DNA from: Pseudomonadota bacterium
GTDB taxonomy: Bacteria > Bdellovibrionota_B > Oligoflexia > Oligoflexales > CAIYRB01
NCBI GenBank assembly: GCA_026390435.1
Contig: JAPLFY010000030.1
Coordinates: 1-64,000, forward strand
Direction: 5' to 3'
DNA: 64,000 nt
The position numbers were made by a program, and so were the translations under genes. Shown here piece after piece: positions 2,538-60,598 of the stretch; positions within the stretch are counted from its first letter, which is position 1; each line of letters starts with the position of its first letter. The notes under the pieces were generated by a model, which did not search any database, had not been told where the DNA came from, and was given only the letters and a program-made list of their open reading frames with translations.

Positions 2538-3386
2538 TCACCCCTTTGCCGCCGCATGATACTTCTTACGAATCTGCTCAATATCAACCGTCGGCGCGGG
2601 CTGCGCCATGTTTAAACTCGCCAAGGACTTGGCGATGATCTGCGCAATGGCCAAATCCCGGAACCATTTGTGATTCGAAGGAATGACGAACCAAGGCGCA
2701 TGTTCAGTACTGGTCTTCTCTAGCAGATCATCGAACGCATCCATATACGAATCCCAGTATTGTCTCTCGCTATAGTCTGCCTCACTGATCTTCCAGTGCT
2801 TATCCGGATCATCAAGGCGCTTTTTGAAGCGAGCTAACTGCTCGTCTTTGGAAATGTGGAGGAAGAACTTCAAAATAGTCGTGTTATTTTCTAGCGCCAG
2901 TAGTCTTTCGAAATCATTGATCTGCTTATAACGCTCGGACCAAACTTTTTCTGGCACCAGCTTATGGACGCGCGCCACCAAGACGTCTTCGTAGTGAGAG
3001 CGGTTGAAGACACCGATCGATCCCTTGCGCGGTGCATGCGGGTGGACGCGCCAGAGAAAGTCGTGCCGCAGTTCCTCGGAGGTGGGAGCTTTAAATGAAG
3101 TGACGTTACAGCCTTGTGGATTGAACGCCGAAACTACGTGCCGGATGACGCCGTCTTTACCGGCCGTGTCTAGACCCTGAAGTACGATGAGAAGCGAATG
3201 CTTACCCTCGGAGTACATCCGATATTGGATCTTAAAAAGTTGCTCCAGATACTTTTGCGTCTCGGCCTCGGCCGATTTATTTGAATCAAAACCATCACGC
3301 GCCGATGGATCAAGTTGTTGGAATTTGACCTTCGCATTTGGTTTCACCAAAAATTCACTGTGGTAATCCTTCATGAGCGCAGCCAT
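2538..3386 (-). CDS. ppk2: Polyphosphate kinase 2 family protein (PPK2)
   Basis: A 282-residue PPK2. It has the Walker A GLDTAGKDG at 71-79, an HPHAPRKGSIGVFNRSHYEDVLVARV block (lid and Walker B region), and the W-x-x-R-Y-K-Q-I-N-D-F-E block. The GLDTAGKDG loop and the length near 280 resemble the AMP/ADP-phosphorylating (class III) members more than the GTP-forming class I; this subclass is inference. The enzyme transfers phosphate between polyphosphate and nucleotides in the cytoplasm. It lies 46 bases downstream of a glycosyltransferase on the same strand and probably shares its transcript. The start is uncertain: GGAG directly abuts Met1, while it sits 12 bases from Met5. Confidence 0.88.
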   Translation of the reverse strand: MAALMKDYHSEFLVKPNAKVKFQQLDPSARDGFDSNKSAEAETQKYLEQLFKIQYRMYSEGKHSLLIVLQGLDTAGKDGVIRHVVSAFNPQGCNVTSFKAPTSEELRHDFLWRVHPHAPRKGSIGVFNRSHYEDVLVARVHKLVPEKVWSERYKQINDFERLLALENNTTILKFFLHISKDEQLARFKKRLDDPDKHWKISEADYSERQYWDSYMDAFDDLLEKTSTEHAPWFVIPSNHKWFRDLAIAQIIAKSLASLNMAQPAPTVDIEQIRKKYHAAAKG

Positions 3387-3432
3387 CTCCCGCGAAAGCT
3401 TAATTGCAAATCAGCACCTAACATCTAGCCAG

Positions 3433-4191
3433 TCAACTACAGCATGTCGATTTATGCACGGACGGCTCTAGCGACTTTTTAAAATCCAGAAGTTGCAGCA
3501 GCATCTTAATGGGATCAGTCACCATCGAAACTTTCGAGCCCGGAACCTCGGTCCACGAGACTGGGCACTCCACTATTTTAACCCCAGCGCGATAAGCAAG
3601 AATCACAAGCTGAGTATCCCAAGTCCAAGTCTGCGACGTGATACTCGGCAGTAAATTTTGTACAGCTGCTCTGCGAAAAAATTTACAACCGCACTGACTG
3701 TCATACACCGGGATATCAAACATCATACTGACGATAGTCGCAAATACCCGACCAACGAGGTGACGACTCAGTTTTCGTTCGACACTGTGGCCGAGCATTT
3801 TCACTCGTGATGCGATGACGCCAGCGACTTGATGATTTTGATCGAGTGACTTAATGACACGCAGTGCTTCCGCAGCAGAAACAGAGCCGTCGGCATCGAG
3901 AAACCCAACGACATCGGTTGATACTTGGCTAAATCCAGCAGCAATGGCGCTGCCCTTGCCACCATTTTTAGGCTTCTTATAAAGACTGATGCGAGACATG
4001 TTTTGTTGAGCCTGCAACACGAGTCGCTCGACTTCGCTAAGGTGATCCTGACGCGATCCATCATCGACAACCAGCACACTGACATTTGGCTCATGCTGCA
4101 GCAGCTGCTCGAAATCGGCTAGTAATTTACCGATACGCGCGCCCTCGTTGTAACAGGGGATAATGATGGAGGTGGATGTCTGAATAGTCAT
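3433..4191 (-). CDS. Family 2 glycosyltransferase, dolichyl-phosphate glucosyltransferase-like
   Basis: A 252-residue GT-A enzyme. It begins with SIIIPCYNEG (NDP-sugar strand), has a VVDDGS motif, a KNGGKGSAIAAG loop, the metal-binding DxD in FLDADGS (near residue 98), and the YDSQCGCKFFRR acceptor-loop pattern. These are the marks of the polyprenyl/dolichyl-phosphate glucose or mannose transferases (ALG5/DPM1-like). No transmembrane segments follow, so it would act on the inner face of the membrane as a peripheral protein. The likely product is a polyprenyl-phospho-sugar used for envelope glycans; the sugar cannot be told. It heads a two-gene unit with ppk2 and is divergent from the SNF2 gene. 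Confidence 0.8.
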   Translation of the reverse strand: MTIQTSTSIIIPCYNEGARIGKLLADFEQLLQHEPNVSVLVVDDGSRQDHLSEVERLVLQAQQNMSRISLYKKPKNGGKGSAIAAGFSQVSTDVVGFLDADGSVSAAEALRVIKSLDQNHQVAGVIASRVKMLGHSVERKLSRHLVGRVFATIVSMMFDIPVYDSQCGCKFFRRAAVQNLLPSITSQTWTWDTQLVILAYRAGVKIVECPVSWTEVPGSKVSMVTDPIKMLLQLLDFKKSLEPSVHKSTCCS

Positions 4192-4223
4192 CGCTAGGTG
4201 GTATCCCTTCAGCCTTCACGGTG

Positions 4224-4242
4224 GCGACACTCAGAATGTCGC
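4224..4242. promoter_or_regulatory. Inverted repeat in a divergent intergenic region
   Basis: GCGACA, a 7-base spacer, then TGTCGC form a perfect 6-base dyad in the 137-base gap between the divergent glycosyltransferase and SNF2 genes. It could be an operator or an mRNA hairpin. No clear -35/-10 pair was seen beside it. Confidence 0.25.
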
Positions 4243-4328
4243 TGCCCTTAATTACGATTTCGGTTTAATCTTAGCAACTCGCCGGAAAAAAGGCGTTCCT
4301 TAACCAATAAAATGCCCGGATTATCGAA

Positions 4329-7874: not shown

Positions 7875-7951
7875 TGGTAGGCCTGCCCGGACTCGAACCG
7901 GGGACCTCTACCTTATCAGGGTAGCGCTCTAACCAACTGAGCTACAGACCT
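7875..7951 (-). tRNA. tRNA-Ile (GAT anticodon)
   Basis: On the minus strand the 77-base gene starts AGGTCTGTAGCTCAG and ends GGCCTACCA. The acceptor stem AGGTCTG/CAGGCCT pairs with one U-G wobble. The D-loop has AGTTGGTTA, the anticodon loop is CTGATAA (GAT), and the T-arm carries GGTTCGAGTCC. CCA is encoded. The gene is single, not inside an rRNA operon, where GAT isoleucine tRNA is often found. Confidence 0.97.
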
Positions 7952-8015: not shown

Positions 8016-8044
8016 TTATCCACCTGTTTATAACTTGTGGATAA
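8016..8044. other. Cluster of DnaA-box-like sequences
   Basis: Three 9-mers lie within 29 bases: TTATCCACC (8016-8024), TGTTTATAA (8025-8033, reverse TTATAAACA) and TGTGGATAA (8036-8044, reverse TTATCCACA, a perfect consensus box). The outer two also form an inverted repeat. They sit just upstream of the tRNA-Ile promoter. The cluster is too short and too far from dnaA/dnaN-type genes to call an origin. It may be a DnaA-titration or regulatory site, or a transcript hairpin. Confidence 0.45.
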
Positions 8045-8087: not shown

Positions 8088-8324
8088 TCAGGCATCAATG
8101 AGGGTGTGTACACCTAACTGGGAGCCGTACTGCTTGAGCTTGCGTTGCAGAGTCCGAATACCGATGCCAAGCACCCGCGCTGCGCGTGTGCGATTAAAAT
8201 TTTGCCGCTTAAGGGTTTCCATAATAACGGCTCTTTCAACATCCGCAAGTGTCATTCCAAACTCAAACGTCACTGGAGCAACAATCATCTCGTCACAGTA
8301 GTCAGTTTTTAACACGTTCAACAT
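8088..8324 (-). CDS. Stand-alone Fis-type helix-turn-helix protein
   Basis: A 78-residue protein made almost entirely of the Fis/NtrC-type C-terminal DNA-binding domain. MTLADVERAVIMETL forms the first helices, then NRTRAARVLGIGIRTLQRKL is the helix-turn-helix. The domain usually ends sigma-54 activators of flagellar and nitrogen genes, but here there is no receiver or AAA+ module. A strong ribosome site (GGGAGG) precedes the ATG, so the start is secure and the protein is not merely a broken fragment. A -24/-12 promoter lies 49-64 bases upstream of the ATG and a flagellin gene lies 219 bases further upstream on the same strand. It may be a small DNA-bending or antagonist protein in the sigma-54/flagellar circuit; that role is inference. 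Confidence 0.8.
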   Translation of the reverse strand: MLNVLKTDYCDEMIVAPVTFEFGMTLADVERAVIMETLKRQNFNRTRAARVLGIGIRTLQRKLKQYGSQLGVHTLIDA

Positions 8325-8372
8325 CGCGGAACCTCCCTATGCCTCACCGTTAACTAAGCCCAAAAGCCTTAG

Positions 8373-8388
8373 TGCAAAGGTGGTGCCA
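8373..8388 (-). promoter_or_regulatory. Sigma-54 (-24/-12) promoter of the Fis-type gene
   Basis: On the minus strand TGGCAC (8388-8383), 5 bases, then TTGCA (8377-8373). This matches the RpoN consensus TGGCAC-N5-TTGC completely, including the invariant GG and GC spacing. Predicted transcription start is near 8362, giving a leader of about 38 bases before the GGGAGG site and ATG of the 78-residue Fis-type gene. rpoN itself is at 59126-60598. Confidence 0.75.
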
Positions 8389-8543
8389 GCACAGGGAGAT
8401 GTCCGCGATATCGAATTAATACATTGATAATATTAACAATAATGGACATTAGCCAACTTGAGACTAAGCCGCCCAGTGGTAGCAAAAGTAAACCGAGTCC
8501 AAGCGACACAGGTATACCTTCGCGCCCACCAAGGCCCTGGCTA

Positions 8544-9425
8544 TTAGCGTAGCAAGGCCAGAGCAATTTCCGGACCTTGATTCGCCTGAGCCAGCACTGA
8601 CATGCCAGCCTGCTGAAGGATCTTGTTCTGCGTGAGCGATGCTGTTTCGGAAGCAAAGTCGACGTCGCGAATCCGGCTGTTAGCGGATTTGAGGTTCTCG
8701 ATCTGAACCCCTAGGTTGTTAATGGTCGAGTTGAGTCGGCTTTGTTGAGCACCCAGGTAAGAGCGGTTGGACGCGACCTTCTCGAGCGCATTGTCGATGG
8801 TATCGAGTTTTTGCGCCGCGGTCTCCCGAGAAAAGGGATCGCCGGGATTCACTGGCCCAACTTCCGCCTCAGTACCGAGGCCGAGGGACTTCACATCGAC
8901 TTTTAATTGCTCGACGCCGATCCGCAAGGTGTCGGTGTTTTCTTTGAGCCCGGAGCCGAGACCCACATGGATGGTGAACATCTCCGCGTCTGGCAGAGCC
9001 TCTTGGCCGCCGAGCAATGGCCAGCCGTTAAACTGCGAGGTGTTGCTGATCCGATCGATTTCGTTTACCAACTGCACATACTCGCGGTTGGCAAAGGAGC
9101 GCTCTTTATTCCCGATGGTATCGGAGGAAGCCTGGGTCGCGAGTTCGCGGAGGCGGACGAGGATGTTCGACACCTCGTTGAAGCTACCCTCAGCGACCTG
9201 TACCAAGGACACGCCGTCGTTGGCGTTGCGCTTAGCCTGGTCAAGACTGCGGATACTCGCCTTCATCCCCTCAGATATGGCCAAACCGGCGGCGTCGTCT
9301 GCAGCCTTGTTGATCCGGTAGCCGCTCGACAACTTGGTGATGTTGTCTTCGAGGGCCGATGTCGAGTTACCAAGGGTGCGTTGTGCACTTAATGACGCTA
9401 CGTTTGTTCTTATCCTGAGACCCAT
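8544..9425 (-). CDS. fliC: Flagellin
   Basis: A 293-residue flagellin. The N-terminal D0/D1 domain is canonical (MGLRIRTNVASLSAQRTL, LSSGYRINKAADDAAGLAIS, AKRNANDGVSLVQVAEGS) and so is the C-terminal helix (SRIRDVDFASETASLTQNKI, ending IALALLR). The central region is short, about 100 residues, so the filament surface domain is small. AAGGAGC stands 6 bases before the ATG. It is one of three flagellin genes here and is separate from the pair at 25.6-27.4 kb. Exported by the flagellar type III system and polymerised under FliD. A sigma-28-like promoter is suggested about 70 bases upstream. Confidence 0.97.
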   Translation of the reverse strand: MGLRIRTNVASLSAQRTLGNSTSALEDNITKLSSGYRINKAADDAAGLAISEGMKASIRSLDQAKRNANDGVSLVQVAEGSFNEVSNILVRLRELATQASSDTIGNKERSFANREYVQLVNEIDRISNTSQFNGWPLLGGQEALPDAEMFTIHVGLGSGLKENTDTLRIGVEQLKVDVKSLGLGTEAEVGPVNPGDPFSRETAAQKLDTIDNALEKVASNRSYLGAQQSRLNSTINNLGVQIENLKSANSRIRDVDFASETASLTQNKILQQAGMSVLAQANQGPEIALALLR

Positions 9426-59125: not shown

Positions 59126-60598
59126 TTAGAAATATTTTTTGCGTTTACTGGATGGTAAAATGTGTAACTGTTCCCTGTATTTAGCAACAGTTCGGCGGGC
59201 CAGTTGAATGCCCTTTTCCTCGAGAATCTCGACGATTCGCTGGTCAGAAAGTGGCCGTTTGACGTCCTCGGCTTTTACTAGGTCGGAAATCATTCGTTTT
59301 ACCGATTCGCTCGCCATATCTTGGCCGTCAGACCGGGTCACGGAGCTATTAAAGAAGTACTTCAGCTCGAAGACACCGCGAGGTGTATGTACAAACTTGT
59401 TATTCGTGACACGACTGATCGTCGATTCATGCATGCTGATATCCTCAGCCACGTCTTTGAGGATCATCGGCTTCAAATATTCGACGCCGTTATCGAAAAA
59501 TTCGCGCTGGCGCTTTACGATACTCTCCGTCACCCGATAGATCGTGCGTTGGCGCTGTCTAATAGACTTGATCAGCCACTCCGCCGCTTTCATCTTTTCC
59601 GAAACATAGTTCTTCTCATCGCCTTTTGGTTTTTTATCGCTAACCATATTCGAATAGAAGTCGCTCACTCTTAAACGCGGCAGACCTTCCTCGTTTAGAT
59701 TCACAGCCCACTCTTCGCCTAGCTTAAATACGTAGACATCGGGAGTGATGTACTGCGCCTCAATAGCTCCAAACTGGCGCCCCGGAATAGGCTCCAAGTC
59801 AGCGATAATGTGGACGTTACTCAGAACATCTTCGAGACTAATACGCATCGCTTTCGCAATCGCCGCGAAATTGCGATTCTCTAGTTCTTTTAGATGGTTC
59901 TCGACAATGTTCTCGACGATTCCGTTTTTCAACCGAGCGTTGCGAAGTTGGAGATGTAGGCACTCTTTTAAATCTCGAGCACACACTCCGCTTGGGTCCA
60001 GGCGTTGTATCGAATCTAAAATATCCTCGACCTGATCCTTATCAAACCCTTCGCTCTCAACCAGTTCCTCTACCGAGATCGTTAGATATCCACGGTCATC
60101 GACATTGCCAATCAATTGAGTTGCGATTCTCAATTCGGCGTCGTCAAATTCGAGTTCACCAATCTGGGAAAATAAATGGTCTTGAAGAGTACCTACTTTC
60201 GAGACCATGTTCTCATAGTTGGGATGTTCATCGTCGCTGGCCTTTTTAGCTGCCGTAGTCGATGCCGGGGCCTGCTCCTGGTAGCGATTAAAGGCCTCCC
60301 AATCAAGGTCGCCCGTCTCTTTATCGTTGCCCGTCGAATCGACGAGGCTGCCCGCTTGTTGAATCGATTCCGAGACGACCTGCTCTTCGGTGCGTTCACG
60401 CTCGCGCTCGACCTGTGCGGCCTCTTCCGGACTCTCCGGCATGTCTTCTTCAAGACACGGGTTTTCCGCGACTTGAGTGGCCACAAATTGCTCGAGCTCT
60501 TGCCGCGATAACTGCAACAGCTTGATCGCCTGCTGCAGCTGCGGGGTCATCAGCAACTGCTGCGTTAATTTGAGACTCTGCTTCAGTTCGAAAGCCAT
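59126..60598 (-). CDS. rpoN: RNA polymerase sigma-54 factor
   Basis: A 490-residue RpoN. Region I is Gln/Leu-rich (LKQSLKLTQQLLMTPQLQQAIKLLQLSRQELEQFV), region II is acidic (residues 50-115), the core-binding domain follows, then the HTH (DVAEDISMHESTISRVTNNKFV) and the RpoN box ARRTVAKYREQL near the C-terminus, which reads the -24 element. It directs RNA polymerase to -24/-12 promoters and needs AAA+ activators, one of which is encoded at 17824-19377. A promoter-like element lies about 50 bases upstream. Confidence 0.97.
   Translation of the reverse strand: MAFELKQSLKLTQQLLMTPQLQQAIKLLQLSRQELEQFVATQVAENPCLEEDMPESPEEAAQVERERERTEEQVVSESIQQAGSLVDSTGNDKETGDLDWEAFNRYQEQAPASTTAAKKASDDEHPNYENMVSKVGTLQDHLFSQIGELEFDDAELRIATQLIGNVDDRGYLTISVEELVESEGFDKDQVEDILDSIQRLDPSGVCARDLKECLHLQLRNARLKNGIVENIVENHLKELENRNFAAIAKAMRISLEDVLSNVHIIADLEPIPGRQFGAIEAQYITPDVYVFKLGEEWAVNLNEEGLPRLRVSDFYSNMVSDKKPKGDEKNYVSEKMKAAEWLIKSIRQRQRTIYRVTESIVKRQREFFDNGVEYLKPMILKDVAEDISMHESTISRVTNNKFVHTPRGVFELKYFFNSSVTRSDGQDMASESVKRMISDLVKAEDVKRPLSDQRIVEILEEKGIQLARRTVAKYREQLHILPSSKRKKYF

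Follow-up and report, generated by a model that had tools for sequence, protein, structure and literature searches.

A stand-alone FlbD/NtrC-type DNA-binding protein of Oligoflexales and a conserved palindrome upstream of its sigma-54 promoter

Within a 64,000-nucleotide stretch of an Oligoflexales genome (hereafter, the window), we analyzed a gene for a 78-aa stand-alone HTH_8 (FlbD/NtrC-type) DNA-binding protein (positions 8088..8324, minus strand). In this order of poorly studied bacteria, the small gene is conserved under purifying selection, is apparently switched on via a sigma-54 promoter, and is accompanied by a 17-bp palindrome of the GGTATC-N5-GATACC type upstream of the sigma-54 box, an element that is new here. 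The reading we favor, whose chances we put just short of even, is that the product is a Fis-like Oligoflexales regulator that, as a dimer, would bind the palindrome of its own promoter, and so regulate itself, as well as further palindromes at a few sigma-54 promoters, mostly those of genes for exported proteins or lipoproteins. The small protein would thus probably fine-tune a limited number of sigma-54 genes, those for exported proteins and not those for flagella.

The gene call is backed by the open reading frame, Pfam, orthologues and an AlphaFold model. The protein (MLNVLKTDYCDEMIVAPVTFEFGMTLADVERAVIMETLKRQNFNRTRAARVLGIGIRTLQRKLKQYGSQLGVHTLIDA; 78 aa, ORF 8088-8324 on the minus strand) starts with an ATG, which follows the ribosome binding site GGGAGG (8332..8337, minus strand) at a 7-nt spacer (8337-8322 including the ATG). 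Its sole Pfam domain is HTH_8 (PF02954; residues 25-66, E 7.7e-18), matched over model positions 1-42 of 42 with 64.4 bits against a curated cut-off of 22. The hallmark of sigma-54 activators, an AAA+ sigma-54 interaction domain with GAFTGA, is absent from the 78-aa protein, and so is a receiver. Since an AAA+ domain is needed to open, or melt, sigma-54 complexes, the small protein cannot perform this step. In these respects, our analysis agrees with the preliminary description, which had recognized an isolated 78-aa DNA-binding-domain protein without receiver and AAA+ parts, had placed its ORF, ATG, GGGAGG and sigma-54 box where we find them, and had deemed it unable to activate sigma-54 itself. 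The same genome encodes rpoN (59126-60598, inside the window), eight full-size sigma-54 activators and, elsewhere, a normal Fis of 126 aa. A search for a phage origin of the small gene returned no phage match. As a side observation, a tRNA-Ile lies at 7875-7951 of the window, and between it and the small gene are two opposed DnaA-box-like sites (TTATCCACC, TTATCCACA; 11 bp apart, 8016-8044), with DnaA-box matches showing no enrichment across the window overall.

Orthologues were sought in 96 genomes, 43 of them from Oligoflexales; these are mostly MAGs, mutually related and in several cases incomplete. Short orthologues were found in 27 of the 43 Oligoflexales genomes and span eight families, with lengths of 70-105 aa when measured from the best-supported starts. 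The 96-genome search returned matches from other families of the class solely within long activator frames, and no orthologue was detected in the same-genus genome G005, possibly owing to a gap among its 460 contigs. Outside Oligoflexales, the same recognition helix (mostly in Poribacteria) belongs largely to full activators; a few matches are short frames, in part located at contig ends. The orthologues share 21 invariant positions, including the recognition helix, and pN/pS of the small gene is 0.02-0.32. A pseudogene or frameshift is ruled out by this conservation of same-length ORFs and by pN/pS, and the view of the preliminary description that this is not a decayed fragment is borne out. 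That the small gene is the remnant of a full activator, as its truncated architecture (and nothing further) would allow, has a practically negligible chance given same-length orthologues in eight families, purifying selection, a conserved promoter and ribosome binding site, and a 219-bp upstream gap in which we searched for an AAA+ remnant and found none.

That gap separates the small gene from a flagellin gene on the same strand (8544..9425, minus strand). The neighbor is kept in families f1, f2, f5 and f8 and in one f11 genome (G023), where the small gene mostly lies directly downstream and co-directional; same-length orthologues beside flagellin, for which the preliminary description had proposed to look in relatives, thus occur in many families (70-105 aa). 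In f6, the small gene is located near mutM, and the flagellin neighbor is absent. The f3 genomes (two species) have no flagellin at all, yet retain the small gene together with its sigma-54 box and palindrome.

The -24/-12 box of the small gene (TGGCACCACCTTTGCA; 8373..8388, minus strand) places the predicted +1 at 8362. Because the pattern TGGCAY-N5-TTGCW occurs 40 times in the window's genome as compared with five occurrences of the reversed control, the box is beyond chance; given a 100-bp upstream stretch, a chance match on the right strand is expected at roughly 1 in 10,000. All 20 orthologues outside f6 keep GG and GC in the box (15 with TGGCA[C/T/A]-N5-TTGC, five weaker), the conserved feature by which sigma-54-dependent genes are recognized, and the perfect sigma-54 box that had been reported at 8388-8373 is confirmed. 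The box is absent upstream of all seven orthologues of f6, the group to which Oligoflexus belongs; this family has a conserved TTGACA-N16-TAATTT block about 190-260 nt upstream of the ATG, so that a sigma-70-like promoter seems to have taken over there.

An upstream alignment of family f1 contained, apart from the box, a single conserved island, GGTTTACTTTTGYKACC. In the window, it corresponds to a 17-bp imperfect palindrome (GGTTTACTTTTGCTACC; 8478..8494, minus strand), a candidate enhancer or operator centered 98 bp upstream of the -24 box (leave-one-family-out P 0.003); the corresponding sequences of other families form near-perfect palindromes (type GGTATCAAATTGATACC). With a matrix trained on other families only, 300 nt of upstream sequence scanned and dinucleotide shuffles as the null, the palindrome was the best site in 19 of 19 testable non-f6 orthologues (P 0.003-0.020), with its center 63-140 bp before the -24 box. 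G014 was the weakest of these cases, and the paired box is imperfect in G016, G014, G023 and G028. Family f8 carries two copies of the palindrome, 32-34 bp apart, and six of the seven f6 genomes, which are devoid of the sigma-54 box, have no palindrome upstream of the small gene. Across 900 kb of sequence, 20 of 22 strong sites were followed by a sigma-54 box 40-170 bp downstream (1.3% expected), but these are mostly training sites, and we counted as independent only the leave-one-family-out result and the palindrome sites elsewhere. The palindrome was also considered as a flagellin terminator and rejected: no terminator was called on that strand, and there is only a GGT/ACC pair and no T run.

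As to descent, the small protein most likely derives from the DNA-binding domain of an FlbD-type sigma-54 activator, judging from sequence comparison. In a tree of HTH domains, which has limited resolution at about 53 residues, the small proteins and FlbD-type domains form one clade (support 86) that does not include the genome's true Fis; this clade also holds activators with the same helix from Poribacteria and other sources, and the G016 protein is not part of the main small-protein clade (support 67). The best NCBIfam match is FlbD (E 2.4e-13), albeit far below that model's whole-protein cut-off. The DNA-binding domain of the small protein is homologous to that of FlbD/FlgR/FlrC-type flagellar activators, and the VTFxxG segment ahead of the HTH is shared as well, but the small protein has neither receiver nor AAA+ domain and differs in conserved recognition-helix residues. 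Among sigma-54 activator relatives, the NtrC proteins of Caulobacter and Rhodobacter as well as VspR have no GAFTGA; they bind DNA and regulate sigma-70 promoters, but do not drive sigma-54 (PMC10274813). These retain AAA+, whereas the small protein is the DNA-binding domain alone. Helicobacter pylori FlgR, a flagellar sigma-54 activator that kept AAA+ and lost its DNA-binding domain (PMC3930126), is its mirror image.

Fis itself is believed to have arisen from the DNA-binding domain of an NtrC-type protein (Morett and Bork 1998, cited in PMC11407668), and the small protein resembles Fis (about 100 aa) in being a stand-alone HTH_8 protein. Its AlphaFold model has three helices (26-40, 45-52, 56-69), which match helices B-D of Fis, and in structure it comes closest to the DNA-binding domains of activators (ZraR, NtrC1) and to Fis, with modest E-values as expected for a short domain. 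Helix A, the N-terminal dimerisation helix of the four-helix Fis fold, is not seen in the model (residues 1-14 are of low confidence), the recognition helix is of FlbD type, and the gene has a sigma-54 promoter. Despite the shared fold core, and although LuxO of Vibrio receives help from Fis at sigma-54 promoters (PMC11407668), it is very unlikely that the small protein is a general nucleoid or architectural protein, that is, a second Fis: a true Fis of 126 aa coexists in this genome, the HTH groups with FlbD types rather than Fis, helix A has no counterpart in the model, the score against the NCBIfam Fis model is 34.7 bits (cut-off 99), and the associated site is a sharp palindrome rather than a loose AT-rich motif.

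Where else the palindrome occurs was assessed by whole-genome pattern searches. Outside the gene's own promoter, the stringent palindrome has 23 sites in the 27 gene-bearing genomes (111 Mb), spread over 15 of them, and two sites, in two genomes, among the 16 genomes without the small gene (43 Mb). Palindrome and gene hence co-occur (Fisher P 0.005 by genome, binomial P 0.015 by Mb), with P values that are optimistic for related genomes. In many cases, a sigma-54 box follows the site at 54-115 bp, and the gene behind it encodes an exported protein or a lipoprotein; the downstream products include a DUF4360 protein and a beta-trefoil lectin domain protein, but the majority match no Pfam family. 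In three f6 genomes of one genus (L196-L198), the palindrome and a TATAAT form part of a conserved block before an FHA-domain gene, an arrangement that would suit a factor not obliged to work through sigma-54. With these patterns, the window's own genome contains no second strong pair of palindrome and sigma-54 box, which counts against binding by the small protein, as does the fact that the co-occurrence rests on related, partly incomplete genomes.

Full activators were compared with the small protein as candidate binders by presence and absence across genomes. The C94 type is ruled out as universal binder of the palindrome, being absent in f3 and f5. PocR, C92 and FlbD-type activators are common to all genomes, including palindrome-free ones such as G020. 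The C149-type response regulator is the stronger contender: the palindrome would then be the enhancer through which such a full sigma-54 activator drives both the small gene and the exported-protein genes, and the small protein would be a further target that binds other sites. We regard this explanation as having a considerable chance, though clearly below one half. The distance and tandem arrangement of the palindromes fit an enhancer and are as much expected for the enhancer of a full activator as for sites of the small protein, and these promoters yielded no second activator site. Moreover, the C149 type accompanies the small gene in most families and is missing from all gene-less genomes except G037 and the same-genus G005, and G013 has a strong palindrome 89 bp ahead of its C149-type gene. 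However, no C149 type was found in the palindrome-bearing genomes G010, G014 and G023, four other genomes have no palindrome upstream of their C149-type gene, and the f6 palindrome sits at a sigma-70-like promoter; nor do the C94 type, missing from f3 and f5, and the universally present PocR, C92 and FlbD types serve this explanation better. Since neither C149 nor C94 types track the palindrome, and palindromes elsewhere concentrate in gene-bearing genomes, the small protein appears to fit the distribution best, albeit an activator's enhancer would look alike. One contig (L094) carries, next to the full gene and close to the contig end, a second, 97% identical copy of the C149-type activator tail (368-550 and 2779-4245), reflecting either a duplication or an assembly artefact.

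Identified flagellar sigma-54 promoters in the window's genome precede an FlgE/F/G-type gene and the transcription unit leading into the FlbD-like activator and flgBC-fliEFGHI. The palindrome was sought at these promoters and is absent from them, by which we rejected it as a flagellar activator site. The recognition helix of the small protein (GIGIRTLQRKLK) also differs from that of the flagellar activator (GISLRTLRNKIN), a difference that is conserved. The preliminary description had suggested that the protein could compete for enhancers with a full activator, bend flagellar promoter DNA or form a feedback loop. Its isolated activator-type domain, conserved sigma-54 box and intact gene stand, and feedback remains plausible because the gene's own promoter carries a conserved palindrome; the flagellar form of the idea is weak because the identified flagellar sigma-54 promoters have no palindrome and because gene, box and palindrome persist in two species without flagellin (f3). 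Competition with the flagellar activator likewise fares poorly in light of the different recognition helix and of gene retention in f3 and f6. That the small protein competes with the FlbD-like activator for flagellar enhancers is hence unlikely, even though flagellin is a neighbor in many families, the HTH is closest to that of the FlbD-like activator, and FlbD represses early flagellar genes in Caulobacter (PMC3930126). On the reading we favor, the neighboring flagellin would be an inherited position and no evidence of a flagellar role.

How, then, might the small protein act? Without an AAA+ domain, it would work at the enhancer region, where it would occupy or bend DNA, and this would most likely limit, or else assist, the full activator, the sign of the effect being a guess. 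A conserved site in the gene's own promoter would most simply be read as negative autoregulation. There is precedent for either direction: Fis helps LuxO at sigma-54 promoters (PMC11407668), and FlbD acts as an activator as well as a repressor (PMC3930126).

In the usual picture of sigma-54 control, one activator works at one enhancer. If true, a conserved activator DNA-binding domain that is produced on its own under a sigma-54 promoter and linked to a defined palindrome would amount to a new type of tuning device, and the small gene would be a testable case of Fis-like proteins arising from activators. In the literature searched, we found no account of small Fis-like proteins linked to sigma-54 in Oligoflexales. 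Going further, and more speculatively than for the regulator itself, the small gene might mark a case in which a Fis-like regulator arose a second time, independently: a freed FlbD-type domain, autoregulated, that reads its own 17-bp palindrome at the sigma-54 enhancer position and gates exported-protein genes without an ATPase, while in parallel, flagella-losing lineages reduced their flagellar activator towards the DNA-binding domain.

As to that activator, the receiver-less FlbD-like protein (window's genome: L090 14489-15577) persists in reduced form in flagellin-less relatives (L116 982-2055, L120 906-1892, L301 2311-2844, L087 118-402). In f3, it has a degenerate AAA+ domain without GAFTGA and is located where the flagellar operon is missing; in f4, it consists of the DNA-binding domain alone (about 95 aa). 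These reduced forms suggest a flagellum-independent role for the DNA-binding domain. The FlbD-like activators of the flagellin-bearing f6 genomes G011 and G036 (L109, L111) are also devoid of the GAFTGA loop.
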